From: Bacteroidota bacterium
GTDB lineage: Bacteria > Bacteroidota > Bacteroidia > NS11-12g > UBA955
Length of the DNA: 34,987 bases
Direction of reading: 5' to 3'
Assembly (NCBI GenBank): GCA_030834125.1
Contig: JAURFW010000017.1
Location: 1-34,987 of the forward strand
Shown: positions 744 through 32,415 of the stretch, piece by piece
How positions within the stretch are numbered: position 1 is the first letter of the stretch
Layout: each line of letters opens with the position of its first letter
Notes under the pieces: generated by a model
The model's input: the letters and a program-made list of their open reading frames with translations, nothing else
The model's database searches: none
What the model was told of the DNA's origin: nothing
Translations under genes and position numbers: made by a program

Positions 744-1379
744 TTGAAATCAAGAAATCAAATAGTATTTTTATTTTTTACAATTATTGCGATTCTAAGG
801 GTTAATGCCCAAGATATTTCAAATCCAATAAATAGTTTGAATGAGAAGAAGGAAATTATCTATGGTTTTGATAATCGCCGTACTCACATTCGTGAAGATA
901 ATACGGTTATCTACGGTATTTATTCTGGAATTGGTTTTGGTAAAAAGTTAAGATTAAAAGTAGGATTTAATGCCGCACCATTTGAAAGAGGCATATTCAG
1001 AGATAACAGAGATCTAACAAAAAAAAACCGCTTCTATTTCGCTAGTTTAGGCCAAGAGTATGATTTTTTTCAATACAAAAAATTTGGTATGACGGTATAT
1101 TTACAAGCGGGTATTGGGAAGAACTATTACCGTGAATTTTCACCTCAGGGAGATGTAGTAAATGAAGGTAATAAATTAATTATTCCTATCGAAACAGGGC
1201 TTCATTTTGGTTATTACTTGAATAGTTATTTGCGTCTAAAAACCGGAATTGGATGGCGTTTTGTCAAACCTGAAGAATCTTCTGATTTGAGTGGCTATTA
1301 TTTTAAAGTAGGTCTAGGGTTTAACTTGAGAAAATATCAAGAATTACACTCCTTACCTATACTTGAGTTCATTGAGTGA
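744..1379 (+). CDS. Outer-membrane beta-barrel protein, unknown function
   Basis: A 211-residue protein with an N-terminal signal peptide (hydrophobic residues about 8-20, cleavage after VNA at 22) followed by alternating-residue strands rich in Gly, Tyr and Phe (for example YGIYSGIGFGKKLRLKVGF and YYFKVGLGFNLR), typical of small outer-membrane barrels of Bacteroidota. I do not recognise a specific family. The only start that keeps the signal peptide is TTG at 744; the next in-frame Met is about residue 112. The last 43 bases overlap the 3' end of the convergent carotenoid gene. The role is not predictable from the sequence. Confidence 0.6.
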   Translation: MKSRNQIVFLFFTIIAILRVNAQDISNPINSLNEKKEIIYGFDNRRTHIREDNTVIYGIYSGIGFGKKLRLKVGFNAAPFERGIFRDNRDLTKKNRFYFASLGQEYDFFQYKKFGMTVYLQAGIGKNYYREFSPQGDVVNEGNKLIIPIETGLHFGYYLNSYLRLKTGIGWRFVKPEESSDLSGYYFKVGLGFNLRKYQELHSLPILEFIE

Positions 1380-3382
1380 TTCTTAAAATAAAATTTCGTC
1401 ATTCCCCAAACATGGGGAAAACTGATGCAAGAAAGAAAAATGAAAAATGGACCAACATTAGATTTCCAATTACCAAAAGTGTTACTAAAGAAAAGTATGA
1501 ATATGAGAACAGCGCCAAAAGAAAAAGGCGTTGCTCTTTTAGTTAGTTCCCAGTTCGAGCAATTTAATTTTGCTTTCAAGTGTTTCCAACCATTTAAACT
1601 ATGAACAAAAATAAAATAAATTCCAAATGAATACAGGAGTGGTAATCTACTAGTAACGGCTAATACTGTAAATAATTCGGCTATATACAAATTTCGTAAT
1701 TTTAATAAGAATACTAAAGTTATAAATAGGCATATTTCTAAAATCAAATTAAATCCAAGCACACCCGAAGGAATTTCTATCGCTGAAACGCCGATACTAT
1801 TTATTATTAAATTGAATTCGTTCAAATGAAAAGAGAATAGGGTTACTAATACCCAAATTCCTAATATGAATTGAGTGAATTTATTGGATGTCAAATTCCA
1901 CTCCTCACTGTCGGTTTGCCCGAAATGCCAAGCCGAATATAATATGAAAAAAATAAGTCCTATTGACGGTGAAAGCCACCAAATTGCAAACATTCCGGCT
2001 CCTTTAAATAAATAATTAAAAATAAAAGTTGGGCTTATGGGAGTTTGAATCTTTCTGGTAACTAATAAGTGGTCTAATGCGCCATGCGGAATTCCTACCG
2101 TCAACAATCCAATTAATAGACCAAGTTGAGTTAAAATTCCGAGGCCTAATTTCTCGAAAAAGACAAATAATATCGAAAGTAAAATTGGGATGAATAGATT
2201 TAGTTTATTCTTAATTCTTTTGAAAATATCAAATATCGCGGTTTTAATAAAGATCCCTTTAGGGAGAGCACCAAGAATTTTTATATCTTGATTAAAACTT
2301 GTTTTTTCATCTAAAAACTTTAAAACTAATGAAGTAGATACTTTTTTAAATAATGTAGAAAATATGTTTCTCCCGTTGGTGGGTTCATTTTCAAGTATTT
2401 TGAGAAGTAATCTATCGTAAAATTGAAATCTTCTTGGAGCTTCAAACGGTGGATTGGGTTTGTGATTTTCTTTAATACTTTGTGCAATCGAAAAACTGTG
2501 ATATGCCATTCGTTTGAATGCATAGCCCGTACTAGGTTTTACTAATCCAGCCGCACTGCCCATTAAAATATGATTAGAGTTGATACTTTCGCTTTTGATC
2601 TTCCCAGATGACATTGGGATTTTACCAATCTCGATTTCTTTAATTTTAAAATCTTTGATTCCTATGCGCTCCTGTATGTAATGCAATAAAATTGGATCCG
2701 CTGTCTTTTGCGATAAAATTTTCTTATCGAATCGTGTGAGCTCAACTAATATTTCATTTTTTGAGAAGGGTAATGTATATATAAATTGGCACGAGTTGCT
2801 TTGTTCAACACCAAAGTCCATCATTGTAAAGGTGTTGGGTTCTGAATCCTCAAGCTTAGAATCTAGCTGGATTCGCCAACCAATGAATGATTGCCAAATG
2901 AAAGATTCATTTGATTTTAATTCATGCCATTGAGGAGGTCTAGAATCAAAAATAAATTTTGAAATATAAGTGTCTTCTTTGTTGATAATGCGAATACTCT
3001 CATTTTCGGTTATCTCCAAATGATTAACTTTATTTTGGATAAAAGAAACGGAATAATTTGATAATATTGATTTAGTCTGATTGTAGAGATCTAGACTGTT
3101 GACATAGTAATATTTTTGGTCATTAAGCTTTTCTGGAAGGGATTGGTTTACTTGGATATTTTCCCAATTTACCTTTGATAAGTCAGCAATTCCCAAAGTT
3201 TTATTTTCTTCTGTATCTGCCCAATAGCAAAAAGACTTGTCATTACTATTTTTCTCTTGAGGTTCAAATATTAAGATTGATTTATTCTTTAATAATCCTT
3301 TACGGTGTAGACTGTTTATTAGTAATGAATTAGCGGCTCCTAATCCAATAAAGGCATAATCATATGTTTTAAACTTGCTCAA
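1337..3382 (-). CDS. Fused lycopene beta-cyclase / Brp-Blh beta-carotene 15,15'-dioxygenase
   Basis: One uninterrupted 681-residue frame carries two enzymes. Residues 1 to about 375 look like flavobacterial lycopene cyclase CrtY: a dinucleotide-binding start (YAFIGLGAANSL, 9-20), SFCYWAD (50-56), TMMDFGVEQ (186-194), IPMSSG (255-260), MGSAAGLVKPSTGYAFKRM (274-292) and a C-terminal KFLDEKTSFNQDIKIL segment. Residues about 395-665 form a multi-helix membrane protein of the Brp/Blh family with its histidine motifs: IPHGALDH (H433, H438), AWHFGQTD (H486), FVHSLNGWKH (H594, H601) and FPHVWGM (H657). By family, CrtY cyclises lycopene to beta-carotene and Blh cleaves it into two retinals. The sum matches the usual lengths of the two separate enzymes (about 385 plus 290). 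Start is TTG; no in-frame ATG exists before residue 187. The coupling of the two activities is inference. Confidence 0.87.
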   Translation of the reverse strand: MSKFKTYDYAFIGLGAANSLLINSLHRKGLLKNKSILIFEPQEKNSNDKSFCYWADTEENKTLGIADLSKVNWENIQVNQSLPEKLNDQKYYYVNSLDLYNQTKSILSNYSVSFIQNKVNHLEITENESIRIINKEDTYISKFIFDSRPPQWHELKSNESFIWQSFIGWRIQLDSKLEDSEPNTFTMMDFGVEQSNSCQFIYTLPFSKNEILVELTRFDKKILSQKTADPILLHYIQERIGIKDFKIKEIEIGKIPMSSGKIKSESINSNHILMGSAAGLVKPSTGYAFKRMAYHSFSIAQSIKENHKPNPPFEAPRRFQFYDRLLLKILENEPTNGRNIFSTLFKKVSTSLVLKFLDEKTSFNQDIKILGALPKGIFIKTAIFDIFKRIKNKLNLFIPILLSILFVFFEKLGLGILTQLGLLIGLLTVGIPHGALDHLLVTRKIQTPISPTFIFNYLFKGAGMFAIWWLSPSIGLIFFILYSAWHFGQTDSEEWNLTSNKFTQFILGIWVLVTLFSFHLNEFNLIINSIGVSAIEIPSGVLGFNLILEICLFITLVFLLKLRNLYIAELFTVLAVTSRLPLLYSFGIYFIFVHSLNGWKHLKAKLNCSNWELTKRATPFSFGAVLIFILFFSNTFGNWKSNVGPFFIFLSCISFPHVWGMTKFYFKNHSMNSSIGKECNS

Positions 3383-3435
3383 ATCGCTCCTTGTTATAGC
3401 AATTGACGAGTTGTAAATGTTTGAAATTGAGTAGT

Positions 3436-4029
3436 TTAATTTTTTATTGCTTCTTCAACAACTTGCCAAATCTCATTTTTACCCAATCCAACATTAGATG
3501 AACTTGTAATAAATGGAGGTATTTCTTCCCAAACTTCAAGAAGCTTATCAGCAATAGCTGTTTTACTCGCCTCTATTTCTTCAGTTTTTAATTTATCTGC
3601 TTTTGTTCCAATCAAAATCATAGGAATTTCGTTTGCCCCACAATCGTTAATGAAATCAATATCCATTTCCTGTGGTGGAATTCTTAAATCTACCAAAACA
3701 AACAAACAATATAAATTGGATCTGTTTAGTAAATAATTTCGAATCATAAGTTGGAACTTCTTACGCATTCCTTTACTTACTTTAGCATAACCATAACCAG
3801 GTAAATCGCAAATCTGGACGCGGTCTTCAATATTGTATAGGTTTAGCATCTGGGTTTTGCCTGGTTTAGAACTAGTCCTTGCCAGTTCTTTTCGTTCCGT
3901 AAGCATATTAATAAGGCTGGATTTTCCGACATTACTTCTTCCAATAAAAGCAAACTCTGGTAGTTTTTCGTTTGACATTTCATCAGATTTTTCCCAACTC
4001 CCTAGATATTTAGCTGAATTCACCTTCAT
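3436..4029 (-). CDS. engB: Ribosome-biogenesis GTP-binding protein EngB/YsxC
   Basis: A small TRAFAC-class GTPase needed for assembly of the large ribosomal subunit. All G motifs are visible: G1 GRSNVGKSS, G2 region SSKPGKTQMLNLY, G3 DLPGYGYA, G4 GTKADK and a G5-like TSSSNVGLG near the end. Length (197 residues) is normal. I chose the ATG at 4029 (MKVNSAKYLG) because it aligns with the usual family start; an in-frame ATG at 4041 would add four residues. It lies upstream of the carotenoid fusion on the same strand (53-base gap) and is divergent from ubiE, whose promoter overlaps its 5' end. Confidence 0.95.
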   Translation of the reverse strand: MKVNSAKYLGSWEKSDEMSNEKLPEFAFIGRSNVGKSSLINMLTERKELARTSSKPGKTQMLNLYNIEDRVQICDLPGYGYAKVSKGMRKKFQLMIRNYLLNRSNLYCLFVLVDLRIPPQEMDIDFINDCGANEIPMILIGTKADKLKTEEIEASKTAIADKLLEVWEEIPPFITSSSNVGLGKNEIWQVVEEAIKN

Positions 4030-4040
4030 ATAATATTGCA

Positions 4041-4073
4041 TTTGATGAGGCCCATAGGAATGGCGTATATTTG
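4041..4073 (+). promoter_or_regulatory. Bacteroidota-type promoter of the ubiE operon
   Basis: TTTG at 4041-4044, a 21-base spacer and TATATTTG at 4066-4073 match the published Bacteroidota consensus (-33 TTTG or TTG, about 17-23 bases, -7 TAnnTTTG). It overlaps the first TTG of the ubiE frame (4071), which argues that translation starts farther downstream. Confidence 0.6.
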
Positions 4074-8795: not shown

Positions 8796-10109
8796 CTAAC
8801 TATTGTATGGTGATTTAAAGTTAGGAGAGAAGTAGTTTAATATGTAATCTTTATTGATTATTTGGAATTGCATGTTGCGAGCTTGGTTTATAAATGTTTC
8901 GAGTATTTCTAGCTTAACTTTGGGCTTTTCAGTCAAATGGTAATTAGCAATATTGAAAAATAATCCATGATATCTCTTAAAGCTACCTCTAAAAGATTGA
9001 GGTTTTAAGTTAACAATTAATTGTTTGGCTTTTTGTTTATCCCCAAGATGAAGATAATAGTAAACTATGACTAGCCTTATTATTAAATAGTGATAATTGT
9101 GGTACCAATATAATGGATTGATATTTTTACTATGAATAAGGTTAAAGATGAATTCAAATAGAACAAAATCGTTTAAGAAAAATGCCAAATTCACTACTTC
9201 ATATAGATATTCAGAAATTCTATTAGGGTTTTTAATAATTATTTCTTCAAATTCTCTGAGAATTTTTCGATTCAATATTTCATTATTTTTTGAAAACGTC
9301 AGTTTAAGAGAATATAACCTGCCGATCAAAATAGGATGAAGTTTATATGAGATTTTTGGGATTTTTTTTTCTAGTAATCGACCTGAAATTATTCCTTTAG
9401 TCATTGTTTTTTTCAAAATTTTTACAGCGGTTGTGAATATCTGTGTTTCCTTGTCATATAAATTTAAATTTTCATATACATAATCAACTTGTTTTCCATA
9501 ATTACTGTTGAAACTAGAATAATCAACATAAATCTTGTAAATTAAATCTATGTAGTTTTTTGACCGTAAAAAGTCTATTTGTACTGAATCAGGGATTTGT
9601 TCTTTCCTTAATAGCGTACCAATTGAATTGCCGAGCATAATTACATGGTTGTATTCTCTACTATTAAAGGATAGCCATGGTTGGTTAATCAACTTAATGA
9701 AGGAGTCGTAATTTTTTCGAATTAAAAGTTCTCTACAGACGAGAATAATAATATTGATAAAATCTCGACCTTGACGTCTTTCATTTGACAATTGGTATAT
9801 TAATTCGTCTGTTGAATGGTTGTCTAAAAAATCAAAAACATTTTCCCATTCACGCCAATCATCAATGGTGTTATACCTTTTAAAGAAGTCGTTGTAAGAT
9901 TGATAGCCGACAAATTCGGATAATAAGTTTAGTGTGTATTTTCGCGGGGTAGTGCCTTTTGCAAGTCCAAAAAGTCTTCTAAGAGTGTTGTAGTTAATAT
10001 TCTTTTGGGTGTTTTCATATATTATTTCTGAAAGTTCTTCGCAATCTCCTCTTGATAGAATTTCTTTTCCAAATTTCAACTGTATTTCTTTTTTCAGCTT
10101 TTCAATCAT
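8796..10109 (-). CDS. Putative DNA-binding helical-repeat regulator, unrecognised family
   Basis: A 437-residue cytoplasmic protein with no signal peptide or membrane segment. The N-terminus (about 1-75: KFGKEILSRGDCEELSEII, then NYNTLRRLFGLAKG, then LLSEFVGYQSYNDF) resembles the start of a Bacteroidota group of hypothetical proteins and reads like a helix-turn-helix. The remaining 350 residues are almost all helix-forming, rich in Leu, Ile, Tyr, Asn and Lys, in a TPR-like pattern. This HTH-plus-helical-repeat plan recalls Rgg/PlcR-type sensors by architecture only. I chose ATG 10109 because an upstream frame extension to 10160 would start inside the TGTATC repeats and adds an unlikely hydrophobic leader. 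TGTATC triplets lie on both sides of the gene, suggesting autoregulation and control of both neighbours. Function unproven. Confidence 0.6.
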   Translation of the reverse strand: MIEKLKKEIQLKFGKEILSRGDCEELSEIIYENTQKNINYNTLRRLFGLAKGTTPRKYTLNLLSEFVGYQSYNDFFKRYNTIDDWREWENVFDFLDNHSTDELIYQLSNERRQGRDFINIIILVCRELLIRKNYDSFIKLINQPWLSFNSREYNHVIMLGNSIGTLLRKEQIPDSVQIDFLRSKNYIDLIYKIYVDYSSFNSNYGKQVDYVYENLNLYDKETQIFTTAVKILKKTMTKGIISGRLLEKKIPKISYKLHPILIGRLYSLKLTFSKNNEILNRKILREFEEIIIKNPNRISEYLYEVVNLAFFLNDFVLFEFIFNLIHSKNINPLYWYHNYHYLIIRLVIVYYYLHLGDKQKAKQLIVNLKPQSFRGSFKRYHGLFFNIANYHLTEKPKVKLEILETFINQARNMQFQIINKDYILNYFSPNFKSPYNS

Positions 10110-10131
10110 AAGTAGTAAACAAATTTTAATT

Positions 10132-10169
10132 TGTATCAAAATTAAAACAAGATGTATCAATTGTGTATC
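10132..10169 (+). repeat. Three TGTATC elements between the divergent regulator and small-protein genes
   Basis: TGTATC at 10132-10137, 10153-10158 and 10164-10169, all in the same orientation, spaced 21 and 11 bases, close to two and one helical turns. Two copies share the longer core TGTATCAAAATT. They lie 23-60 bases upstream of the regulator start (10109) and 51-88 bases upstream of the small-protein start (10220), as expected for shared operator sites. Confidence 0.55.
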
Positions 10170-29218: not shown

Positions 29219-31138
29219 ATGTGTGGAATTGCTGGTATATCAACATCTATCCTAAAGGATCGCGGTTACTGGGAGCGTTGGGCTCGCATATTTAGCAATT
29301 CAATAGAAGAAAGAGGTAAAGATGATGCTGGTTTATTGTTATTGAATAGGAATGCAGATCCAACACCTGTATTATGGGGGAGGGAAGGATATGAAACCTC
29401 ACTACAATATTTGCCAAAACGAAATTTTTATGATGCTGTTTCTGAATCTGTAAATGGATTTATATTACATCAGCGTTTATCAATTATCGCACCTGGAGAA
29501 AGGGGGCATCAGCCCATGTGCGATTCTTCTTCACGTTACTGGATAACCTACAATGGAGAAATCTTTAATTATATTGAACTGCGTAAACAGTATAATTTAA
29601 ATACAATTACAGATACGGATACTGAGGTTCTACTTGAGCTTTGGGCGAAAATGGAAGAAAAGTGTCTTGCTTTACTTGATGGCTTCTTCGCATTTTGTAT
29701 TTATGATTCAAAAGATAATACCTATACAATTGTTAGAGATAAAACGGGTGTTAAGCCATTACACTATATTCTGAATAAGGAAGGTTTTGCATTTAGTAGT
29801 AATGAATTATCTCTGAGAGAGTTTTCAGGATCTTCTGAAATAAATAAACAGGCAATCTATCTACACATGAAATATGGTATGTCAGAAGTGCATGATTGGT
29901 ATGAAGATGTTAAGACGTTGCCACCAGGACACTGGTTGAAATGGATACCAAATCTCAGAAATACTATTTTTCGTAGATGGTATTTCCCATCTTCGCATTA
30001 TAGAAATAACGAGGCAAGAGATTTAAGGGAAATGCTTTTCGAGTCAATGAGAAAGAGACTCAGAAGTGATGTCCCCATTGGTTTTTCCGTAAGCGGAGGA
30101 ATAGATAGTGCAATTCTTTTAGGTCTTGGTCGATGGATTTTAGGGGTTGATGAAAGAATCCATTTGTTTTCTGTTGGCAGCAGGGGTAAATCAGGAGATG
30201 AAACAAAATGGCAAGAACAAGTCCATAGAAAACATGGCGGGAATATGCATCGTATTGATGTTGAGGGATTGACCACTGCCGATATTGAGGAACAAATTAT
30301 AAAAACTAAACGACCTCAAGTAGCTTGGAATAATGTTGCACATTTTGCCTTGTGCAGACGGGTAAAAGATGAGGGAGTTGTTGTGTTGTTCAACGGACAA
30401 GGTGCAGATGAGATTTTTGGTGGATATCCGGATTACTTTATCCAAGGATTAAAAGACGAAGGAAGTTCTATCGGAAAGTTTAAGGAATTTTGGCCCATCT
30501 CTGCCAATAAAGCGCGTCAGGTATATTTTAAGAGGAAGCTACGTTCTAAAATGTCCGAAAATCTCAAGAAAAAAATTGATAGATGGGCATGGTCAGAATT
30601 ATTTACAATAAATGTAATCAATGCAAATTCTATAGAGTTACACCCCAAAGTAGAAAATGTACAGGAAATGATGCTCGGCGATTATTATGGTAAACTTCAG
30701 GATTCAAAGTTTTATGGGAAACTATACCAAATGCTAGCTTGGGAAGATAGAAACGGAATGGCTTTTCAATTAGAGAGTAGAAATCCATTCGCAGATGATT
30801 TAAATATTCCAAAATATTTTTTAGGTAAAAAAACACTTTCCCAATTATCCCAAAATACTTTGCCTAAAGGATTACTGAGAAATACATTTAAGGATTTACT
30901 CCCCCAAGACTTATACAATAGAACTGATAAAAATGGGTTTAGCATGCCAGATACTTGGCTAACTCATGAGCATGGTTTTGAATGGACTGATTGGATTATG
31001 AACTCTGATCTAGATGAAATTATCAATCGGGGATATAGAGAAAAGTTAATTTCAAACTTTGAAAAGTTAAATGTAAGTCAATATCAGAACTATTTTAGAA
31101 TTGCGACTCTCGGTAGGTTTTTATCTGAATTAAAATGA
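29219..31138 (+). CDS. asnB: AsnB-type glutamine-dependent amidotransferase
   Basis: Asparagine-synthetase (class II) family, 639 residues. N-terminal glutaminase with nucleophile C2 (MCGIAGIS), NGEIFNYIELR and a TDTE segment; synthetase domain with the PP-loop FSVSGGIDSAILLG (SGGIDS at 292-297), FNGQGADEIFGGYPDYF and ESRNPFADDLNIPKYF near the end. It could make asparagine, but such genes inside glycan clusters often amidate sugar carboxyl groups, and here it lies between a glycosyltransferase and a flippase with a four-base stop/start overlap to the latter. I favour glycan modification, as inference. Confidence 0.88.
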   Translation: MCGIAGISTSILKDRGYWERWARIFSNSIEERGKDDAGLLLLNRNADPTPVLWGREGYETSLQYLPKRNFYDAVSESVNGFILHQRLSIIAPGERGHQPMCDSSSRYWITYNGEIFNYIELRKQYNLNTITDTDTEVLLELWAKMEEKCLALLDGFFAFCIYDSKDNTYTIVRDKTGVKPLHYILNKEGFAFSSNELSLREFSGSSEINKQAIYLHMKYGMSEVHDWYEDVKTLPPGHWLKWIPNLRNTIFRRWYFPSSHYRNNEARDLREMLFESMRKRLRSDVPIGFSVSGGIDSAILLGLGRWILGVDERIHLFSVGSRGKSGDETKWQEQVHRKHGGNMHRIDVEGLTTADIEEQIIKTKRPQVAWNNVAHFALCRRVKDEGVVVLFNGQGADEIFGGYPDYFIQGLKDEGSSIGKFKEFWPISANKARQVYFKRKLRSKMSENLKKKIDRWAWSELFTINVINANSIELHPKVENVQEMMLGDYYGKLQDSKFYGKLYQMLAWEDRNGMAFQLESRNPFADDLNIPKYFLGKKTLSQLSQNTLPKGLLRNTFKDLLPQDLYNRTDKNGFSMPDTWLTHEHGFEWTDWIMNSDLDEIINRGYREKLISNFEKLNVSQYQNYFRIATLGRFLSELK

Positions 31139-32415
31139 GTACCGATAATCCAATAAAGTCTTATTATTGGCAAATTTCCAAAGCTGCTATTTCGTTTTTA
31201 TCGATTATCATTTATTCTCAGTTTTTGGGGGCAGAAGGACGGGGTGAATTAAGTGTTTGGCTTTTAGTATTACAAGTAGTACTAATGTTTAATGAATGGG
31301 TGATGGGTTCGGCGATGGCCAATTGGTTTAGCCAGTTTGGATTCAGTACTGTTTTAAAGAAAATATGGTTTTTCCCAATAATTGTCTTAGCATTATCTTA
31401 TTTATTCTCATTAATCTTTCAAATCCCGTTTACAATTTTCATTAATCTCGCTTTGATTGGTATAGGGATAACAGTTCAAAATGTTTTTGCAAATTATTTT
31501 CAATCTACGGGTGAGGTCTTAAAGCGTAATAAATGGCAATTTACCTACGAATCATTGAAAGTGGTTTTATTATCAATTTTCTTATTGCTTATTTTAAAGG
31601 GGTTTATAAATAGATACAATGATGGTGTAGAATTAACTTTAATGATAATTTCTAATTCAGCAATTTTATGGGTAATAGGAGCATTGTTCTTATTTAGTCA
31701 ACGAGCAAATAAGGAGAAAGTAGTACAATCAAAGTTTCCTCGAATCGCATTAGTTTTAAGAGAAGGGTTTTGGGCACAATTTGGACATTTGTTATTATTT
31801 ATATTGTTTAAGTCTCCCATTTATTTTGCTGCAAAATTAAGTGGAGATGCTCTTGCTGGTATTATTGCCAACACATTACTAATAGCAGATGCTGTTTGGA
31901 TTTTTGCCAATACATTTGGCATGGTATTGCATTCCAGAGCACTGGAAAATCAAGATTTGAGATATCATCAAAAGTTGGCCTCCCGATATGTTGTAATTAG
32001 TTTTTGGGGAACGGTAACTTTGGCAAGTTTTGTGCTACTGATTCCTCAATTTGCTTATGAGTGGGTATTTGGGGAAGAATTTGGTTCAATGAAGCAACTT
32101 TGGCGTTTGATATTTCCAGGGGTAGTGGCCATGTCATTTTCTGCCGTATTAGGCAATTTATTACATGCACAAAATAGATTCATTGAATTAGCGAAAAATC
32201 ATTTCTTGGCTTTATTGATAATGTTAGTGTCTTTTTATTTTATGAAAATCATGGGGGTAAGTGTTAAGCATACACTACTGTATAGCTTTGATTTTGGTGT
32301 GTTTTTGCTTGTAGTTTTCAATGTTTTATCGTTGAAAATTCCTTTATTCAATAAAAGATTTTGGAAGGATAATACATTGATAATGTTACGTTTGCTAAAA
32401 AAACGTTTAAAGTAA
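31135..32415 (+). CDS. Polysaccharide flippase (Wzx/MOP-superfamily)
   Basis: 426 residues with about a dozen predicted hydrophobic membrane segments and few charged residues apart from loops. The opening ISKAAISFLSIIIYSQFLGAEGRGELSVW is typical of the polysaccharide biosynthesis/MVF-like transporters, which move lipid-linked oligosaccharides across the inner membrane. Its start overlaps the amidotransferase stop (ATGA), making it the third gene of the operon. The substrate is unknown. No polymerase or ligase gene is visible after it; transcription of the next gene restarts from its own promoter box. Confidence 0.85.
   Translation: MSTDNPIKSYYWQISKAAISFLSIIIYSQFLGAEGRGELSVWLLVLQVVLMFNEWVMGSAMANWFSQFGFSTVLKKIWFFPIIVLALSYLFSLIFQIPFTIFINLALIGIGITVQNVFANYFQSTGEVLKRNKWQFTYESLKVVLLSIFLLLILKGFINRYNDGVELTLMIISNSAILWVIGALFLFSQRANKEKVVQSKFPRIALVLREGFWAQFGHLLLFILFKSPIYFAAKLSGDALAGIIANTLLIADAVWIFANTFGMVLHSRALENQDLRYHQKLASRYVVISFWGTVTLASFVLLIPQFAYEWVFGEEFGSMKQLWRLIFPGVVAMSFSAVLGNLLHAQNRFIELAKNHFLALLIMLVSFYFMKIMGVSVKHTLLYSFDFGVFLLVVFNVLSLKIPLFNKRFWKDNTLIMLRLLKKRLK

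Follow-up and report, generated by a model that had tools for sequence, protein, structure and literature searches.

Retinal for rhodopsin phototrophs is normally described as being supplied by separate crtY and blh genes. Such separate genes have been described in Dokdonia strains (PMC3587595). The Blh of the uncultured marine bacterium 66A03 loses its activity when His21, His78, His188, or His192 is changed (PMC9227343). Fused carotenoid enzymes are also on record; thraustochytrids have a fused CrtIBY, and Thecamonas trahens has CrtI, CrtB, CrtYc/d, and Blh in one protein (PMC10016063). The window analyzed here, which is the whole stretch of 34,987 nucleotides, belongs to a draft genome of a Bacteroidota bacterium (94 contigs, 98% complete, 3.3% estimated contamination) and encodes a CrtY-type lycopene cyclase and a Blh-type dioxygenase in one polypeptide.

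A crtY-blh gene in one reading frame

It was found that a single 681-codon ORF at 1337-3382 on the minus strand has no internal stop codon (ORF analysis). The features of the locus are as follows.

1337-3382, minus strand: CrtY-Blh fusion gene of 681 amino acids, TTG start, stop codon at 1337-1339 (ORF, Pfam, NCBIfam, and homologous fusions)
2264-3361, minus strand: CrtY-type FAD-dependent lycopene cyclase domain, residues 8-373 (Pfam PF05834; flavoprotein fold)
2741-2743, minus strand: Glu214, candidate catalytic acid of the cyclase (invariant; aligned with a Glu of Pantoea CrtY)
2111-2263, minus strand: junction between the Pfam domains, residues 374-424 (helix 375-391 leading into the first Blh membrane helices; AlphaFold model)
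1400-2110, minus strand: Brp/Blh beta-carotene 15,15'-dioxygenase domain, multi-pass membrane, residues 425-661 (PF15461, TIGR03753, helical model)
2084-2086, minus strand: His433 in GIPHGALDH, candidate Fe ligand (invariant in 100 fused and 34 split Blhs)
1925-1927, minus strand: His486 in WHFG, candidate Fe ligand (invariant in the same 100 fused and 34 split Blhs)
1601-1603, minus strand: His594 in VHSLNGWKH, candidate Fe ligand (invariant in the same 100 fused and 34 split Blhs)
1412-1414, minus strand: His657 in SFPH (present in 99 of 100 fused proteins, with one gap, and in 34 of 34 split Blhs)
3387-3392, minus strand: Shine-Dalgarno-like AAGGAG, 4 nt 5' of the TTG start (sequence)
3436-4041, minus strand: EngB/YsxC-like GTPase gene, upstream of the fusion on the same strand (ORF and Pfam MMR_HSR1)

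The GTPase gene sits on the side of the fusion where several relatives have a rhodopsin gene. On the other side, a convergent ORF without a Pfam match (744-1379) overlaps the 3' end of the fusion by 43 bases. Promoter and terminator scans gave no score above those of shuffled sequence. Elsewhere in the window, the C-terminal part of an aromatic amino acid lyase (PF00221) lies at 1-648, truncated by the contig start, and two long ORFs at 8796-10160 and 31135-32415 (454 and 426 amino acids) have no Pfam match.

The cyclase half matches PF05834 (Lycopene_cycl) with 139.6 bits against a cut-off of 23.4 and covers positions 1-370 of the 380 positions of the profile (residues 8-373). It stays under the NCBIfam CrtY cut-offs, with 88.7 of 209.5 bits for TIGR01790 and 54.9 of 215.2 bits for TIGR01789. 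These scores weaken the exact naming and not the Pfam family membership, the NCBIfam models being set for narrower groups. Glu214 is present in all of the 100 fused and 27 split CrtYs compared, and it aligns with the Glu residue of LLIEDTHY in Pantoea CrtY, which I take to be the catalytic acid of that enzyme. The glycines of the FAD motif, G13 and G15, are conserved and also align with Pantoea CrtY. A fold search with the predicted model assigned the head to the geranylgeranyl-reductase-type flavoprotein fold (Z 20-23; Z 23 to 3oz2), and a sequence search of solved structures found no meaningful relative of the fusion.

The second half matches PF15461 (BCD) with 115.8 bits (cut-off 28; profile positions 2-263 of 267, residues 425-661) and the Brp/Blh model TIGR03753 with 124.7 bits, above the cut-off of 95.25. 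This half is polytopic; hydrophobic segments run from residue 390 onward and the model shows a helical bundle. The fold search says little on it, since the matches listed were filled by the flavoprotein part. His433, His486, and His594 correspond to His21, His78, and His188 of 66A03 Blh by motif. His192 of 66A03 has no counterpart at position +4 after His594; a histidine at +7 (His601) is found in 81 of 100 fused proteins. The +4 histidine is also missing from several split Blhs of Bacteroidota.

The AlphaFold model (pLDDT 84.5, pTM 0.71) consists of the flavoprotein head, the helix 375-391, and a helical membrane domain. The helix is equivalent to the C-terminal tail of a stand-alone CrtY. 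This tail is 10-19 amino acids long in stand-alone CrtYs and accounts for most of the interdomain stretch of the fused proteins, whose median is 23 amino acids with a range of 18-45 among 100 sequences. The initial annotation had described two complete halves sharing one frame, with the first ending near residue 375 and the second beginning near residue 395. Both points hold; the two Pfam domains are near full length without a stop codon between them, fused homologues recur, and the boundaries fit the helix 375-391 and the first Blh membrane helices of the model.

Are both halves maintained? In nine close pairs of fused genes, dN/dS was 0.08-0.26 for the CrtY half and 0.09-0.43 for the Blh half. 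Both halves were below 0.3 in eight of the nine, and the highest value came from a pair with very few changes. These values indicate that both halves are under purifying selection. The pairwise distances of the two halves were correlated in the fused proteins (Spearman 0.44, a value reached by none of 300 permutations) and in split pairs (0.57). It was considered whether only one half is active, the protein being either a Blh whose CrtY part has decayed into an anchor or a CrtY whose Blh tail has decayed. Such decay might be read from the scores under the NCBIfam cut-offs and from the unusual spacing of one of the four characterized Blh histidines, but both halves conserve their candidate active-site residues and have a low dN/dS. 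Moreover, a search that covered CrtY-type cyclases and Blh found no second member of either family in this genome. The loss of either activity would break the pathway despite the intact crtB and crtI genes and the associated rhodopsin. An enzyme with only one working half is thus very improbable.

Recurrence and origin of the fusion

A protein search revealed full-length fused homologues in the same genus, family, and order, with 35-41% identity in many genomes. Among the best 80 of 405 relatives in a public genome collection, a domain scan of ORFs for the CrtY plus Blh architecture found one uninterrupted CrtY-Blh ORF in all 80 loci. A frameshift or an assembly artefact is therefore excluded as the cause of the fusion. 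The draft state of the genome, its 94 contigs, and its estimated contamination could still raise the suspicion of misassembly or misbinning. However, there are about 100 independent in-frame fused loci, one of them (AG-349-I04, L092) from a record without a MAG label, and tgt, a neighbor of the fusion on its contig, has 73-82% identity with the tgt genes of genomes of the same genus. The probability of an artefact is negligible.

All 100 sampled fused proteins have the CrtY domain before the Blh domain. The records, nearly all of them MAGs, are labeled as Crocinitomicaceae, Cryomorphaceae, Chitinophagaceae, other Flavobacteriales, and Bacteroidetes, with one labeled as Sphingomonadales. Of 392 genomes sampled evenly across the phylum, five have a fusion (the genome of the window, G113, G276, G292, and G388), and many others have adjacent crtY and blh genes whose reading frames abut or overlap. 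Two phylogenetic trees were built from fused and split genes together, one with 68 rows for the CrtY half and one with 74 rows for the Blh half, and in each of them the fused sequences lie on one side of a single branch with an SH-aLRT support of 99. In both trees, the fused forms are one clade apart from all sampled split forms.

Two apparent exceptions were rejected. L019 looked like a split gene inside the fused clade and turned out to be a fused gene truncated where its contig ends. A full-span match of 455 bits in G195 looked like an independent second fusion and consists of two ORFs with one stop codon between them. In this G195 locus (L187, 984-3173, minus strand), split crtY and blh genes lie in one frame, one stop codon apart. 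The arrangement is one step from a fusion and looks like an intermediate towards the fusion or a parallel of it. The simplest account may be one fusion of a coupled crtY-blh pair followed by vertical and lateral spread.

Within the genus of the window, the fusion is only about 38-41% identical to its counterparts, while tgt from its contig reaches 73-82% identity with the same genomes. The genes beside the fusion also differ from those in the same-genus relatives. The low identity compared with tgt and the different neighbors suggest gene replacement, mobility, or fast evolution of the fusion in this genus. Viral origin or carriage was rejected because no relative was confirmed in viral contigs and none was found in phage records. 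The plasmid matches listed span the CrtY half only.

Rhodopsin genes in fusion-bearing genomes

Rhodopsin genes (PF01036) were tallied in 65 genomes of the order that are at least 90% complete. A rhodopsin gene was present in 29 of 31 genomes with the fusion (including G013, whose fusion is cut by a contig end), and in all 8 that have crtY and blh as split genes. It was also present in all 4 genomes having blh without crtY, in none of the 3 having crtY alone, and in 1 of the 19 lacking both. Taken together, 41 of 43 genomes with a Blh have a rhodopsin compared with 1 of 22 without it (Fisher p ~9e-14, an overstated significance since the genomes are related). Among the best 80 fused loci, 33 have a rhodopsin gene at most 4 kb from the fusion, 30 of them on the same strand (22 upstream and 8 downstream). 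The fusion co-occurs with rhodopsin genes in this order. A genome of the same family as the window's, G067, has a rhodopsin and no CrtY or Blh match; it may be a retinal scavenger, or the gene may be lost in a gap. G024, a fusion-bearing genome, has a second, partial Blh match (C2: 27946-28437) 274 bases from a rhodopsin match, which is perhaps an older stand-alone blh. In other Bacteroidota, very divergent rhodopsin-like ORFs adjoin blh (L214, 4228-5109, and L226, 37-912, both on the minus strand), scoring 47-51 bits on a model that gives typical rhodopsins 300-400 bits.

The initial annotation predicted a rhodopsin elsewhere in the genome of the window. No PF01036 match was found in this assembly, which is 98% complete. 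Heliorhodopsin was set aside as the retinal partner, with no match in 38 genomes including that of the window, a weak negative since no positive control matched either. Does the retinal, or a related apocarotenoid, serve a non-rhodopsin purpose in a species truly lacking rhodopsin? The missing matches for both rhodopsin families would agree with that, but the gene order around two contig ends speaks against it. In four genomes of the same genus (G001, G004, G009, and G011), the fusion is likewise away from the rhodopsin gene, which lies beside an RNase E/G-family gene. An OmpA-family gene is on the other side of the rhodopsin in three of the four, in two of them after one further gene, and the contig ends there in G004. 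In the genome of the window, contig C65 begins 54 bases from the end of the RNase E/G-family gene, and an OmpA-family gene is reduced to its last 74 residues at the end of contig C28 (100,237-100,458 of 100,460). The gene order flanking these contig ends matches the same-genus relatives on both sides. The rhodopsin site of the relatives therefore falls in an assembly gap, and after this test a true absence of rhodopsin was set aside. The prediction thus stands as plausible; the assembly lacks a match, but a rhodopsin gene may be hidden by the gap.

The other fused genome without a rhodopsin, G005, is a similar case. The contig carrying its fusion (L121) has 3,035 bases and stops 246 bases upstream of the gene, at a position where close relatives have a rhodopsin. 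A non-rhodopsin use of the product is accordingly very unlikely. The rhodopsins of the same-genus relatives have the motif sequence RYVDWLLTVPLMCVE, which is the D-T-E pattern known from proton pumps.

Carotenoid pathway, proposed role, and known systems

The genome of the window has other carotenoid genes on contig C35 (L232, G000:C35, 5581-14503): a crtZ-like gene, crtI, crtB, and then a cruF-like gene and crtD. The CrtZ-like hydroxylase keeps its histidine boxes. Enzymes of these families are known to make hydroxylated carotenoids with one or two rings, such as those of the zeaxanthin, myxol, or saproxanthin type. Such carotenoids need cyclized carotene outside the Blh site. The C35 genes suggest myxol/saproxanthin- or zeaxanthin-type pigments, and possibly rhodopsin antenna carotenoids too.

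It had been proposed initially that the fusion channels lycopene through beta-carotene to retinal without releasing any carotenoid. A dedicated retinal synthase of this kind, with lycopene in, retinal out, and beta-carotene never released, would fit the CrtY-then-Blh order kept by all sampled fused proteins and the short, length-constrained junction, mostly an ordinary CrtY tail, which holds the halves close. However, this genome has only one CrtY found, together with CrtZ-like, CruF-like, and CrtD enzymes whose products usually need a beta-ring. Because of this combination, some cyclized carotene must presumably leave the fusion enzyme, an argument which is strong but not final. Strict channelling is thus unlikely, and this part of the proposal is not supported.

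The preferred reading is that the fusion is a bifunctional membrane-anchored enzyme converting lycopene via beta-carotene to retinal for rhodopsin, with some cyclized carotene escaping, and I consider it quite likely. The CrtY half, FAD-dependent and peripheral at the cytoplasmic face of the membrane, would close the beta-rings of lycopene. The Blh half, a predicted multi-helix membrane non-haem iron dioxygenase, would cut beta-carotene at the 15,15' bond into two retinals. The retinal would load a microbial rhodopsin, which in the same-genus relatives is the gene of the OmpA-family/RNase E/G locus with the DTE proton-pump-like motif. The fusion would set a 1:1 ratio of the two enzymes and hold the cyclase at the membrane beside the cleaving enzyme, a co-localization which may be its benefit. 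Some cyclized carotene would escape towards the xanthophyll-making enzymes. The lycopene-to-retinal role, also named in the initial annotation, appears the most likely one from the domain identity, the conserved candidate residues, and the co-occurrence with rhodopsin. I infer from the same evidence that both activities are present and that retinal is the product. More tentatively, and with considerable doubt, the fusion may represent a clade-wide bacterial retinal synthase of single origin with partial channelling, spread among uncultured aquatic Bacteroidota with proteorhodopsin.

The fusion is of note for its wide distribution, its apparent single origin, and its close association with rhodopsin. 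Gene annotation or metagenome counts that place each gene in one family only would overlook or wrongly count one of the two reactions. The fusion would also provide engineered cells with one compact gene for the route from lycopene to retinal, and it allows a direct test of whether joining the enzymes steers carotene to retinal or to xanthophylls.

The enzymes themselves are known; what the fusion adds is a genuine arrangement of them that many genomes share, and not new chemistry. No bacterial CrtY-Blh fusion was found in the open-access papers searched. The initial statement that no characterized protein of this kind is known holds to that extent for bacteria, but Thecamonas provides a precedent for joining a cyclase to a Blh (PMC10016063). 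The split crtY and blh of rhodopsin-bearing Bacteroidota encode the same two enzymes in the same order, usually on the same strand, as the halves of the fusion. They make two proteins, whereas the fused forms are one polypeptide and a separate clade in both trees. The characterized beta-carotene 15,15'-dioxygenase of the Brp/Blh family, 66A03 Blh, has conserved histidines comparable to those of the fusion (PMC9227343), although it is a stand-alone protein and its His192 lacks a counterpart at the same spacing. Pantoea CrtY shares the FAD motif, the MD..V.Q....F.Y.LP motif, and the conserved Glu with the cyclase half, while it is only 21% identical, stands alone, and has no membrane domain. The thraustochytrid CrtIBY is a precedent for fusing consecutive carotenoid steps; it joins other enzymes and has no retinal-forming step. 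The closest likeness is the Thecamonas protein, which also has a lycopene cyclase and a C-terminal Blh in one polypeptide. However, that protein is eukaryotic and has four domains with a CrtYc/d cyclase, whereas the bacterial fusion has two domains with an FAD-dependent PF05834 cyclase, and crtI and crtB, parts of the same protein in Thecamonas, are separate genes on contig C35 in the genome of the window. The Thecamonas fusion and the bacterial CrtY-Blh fusion are independent events.
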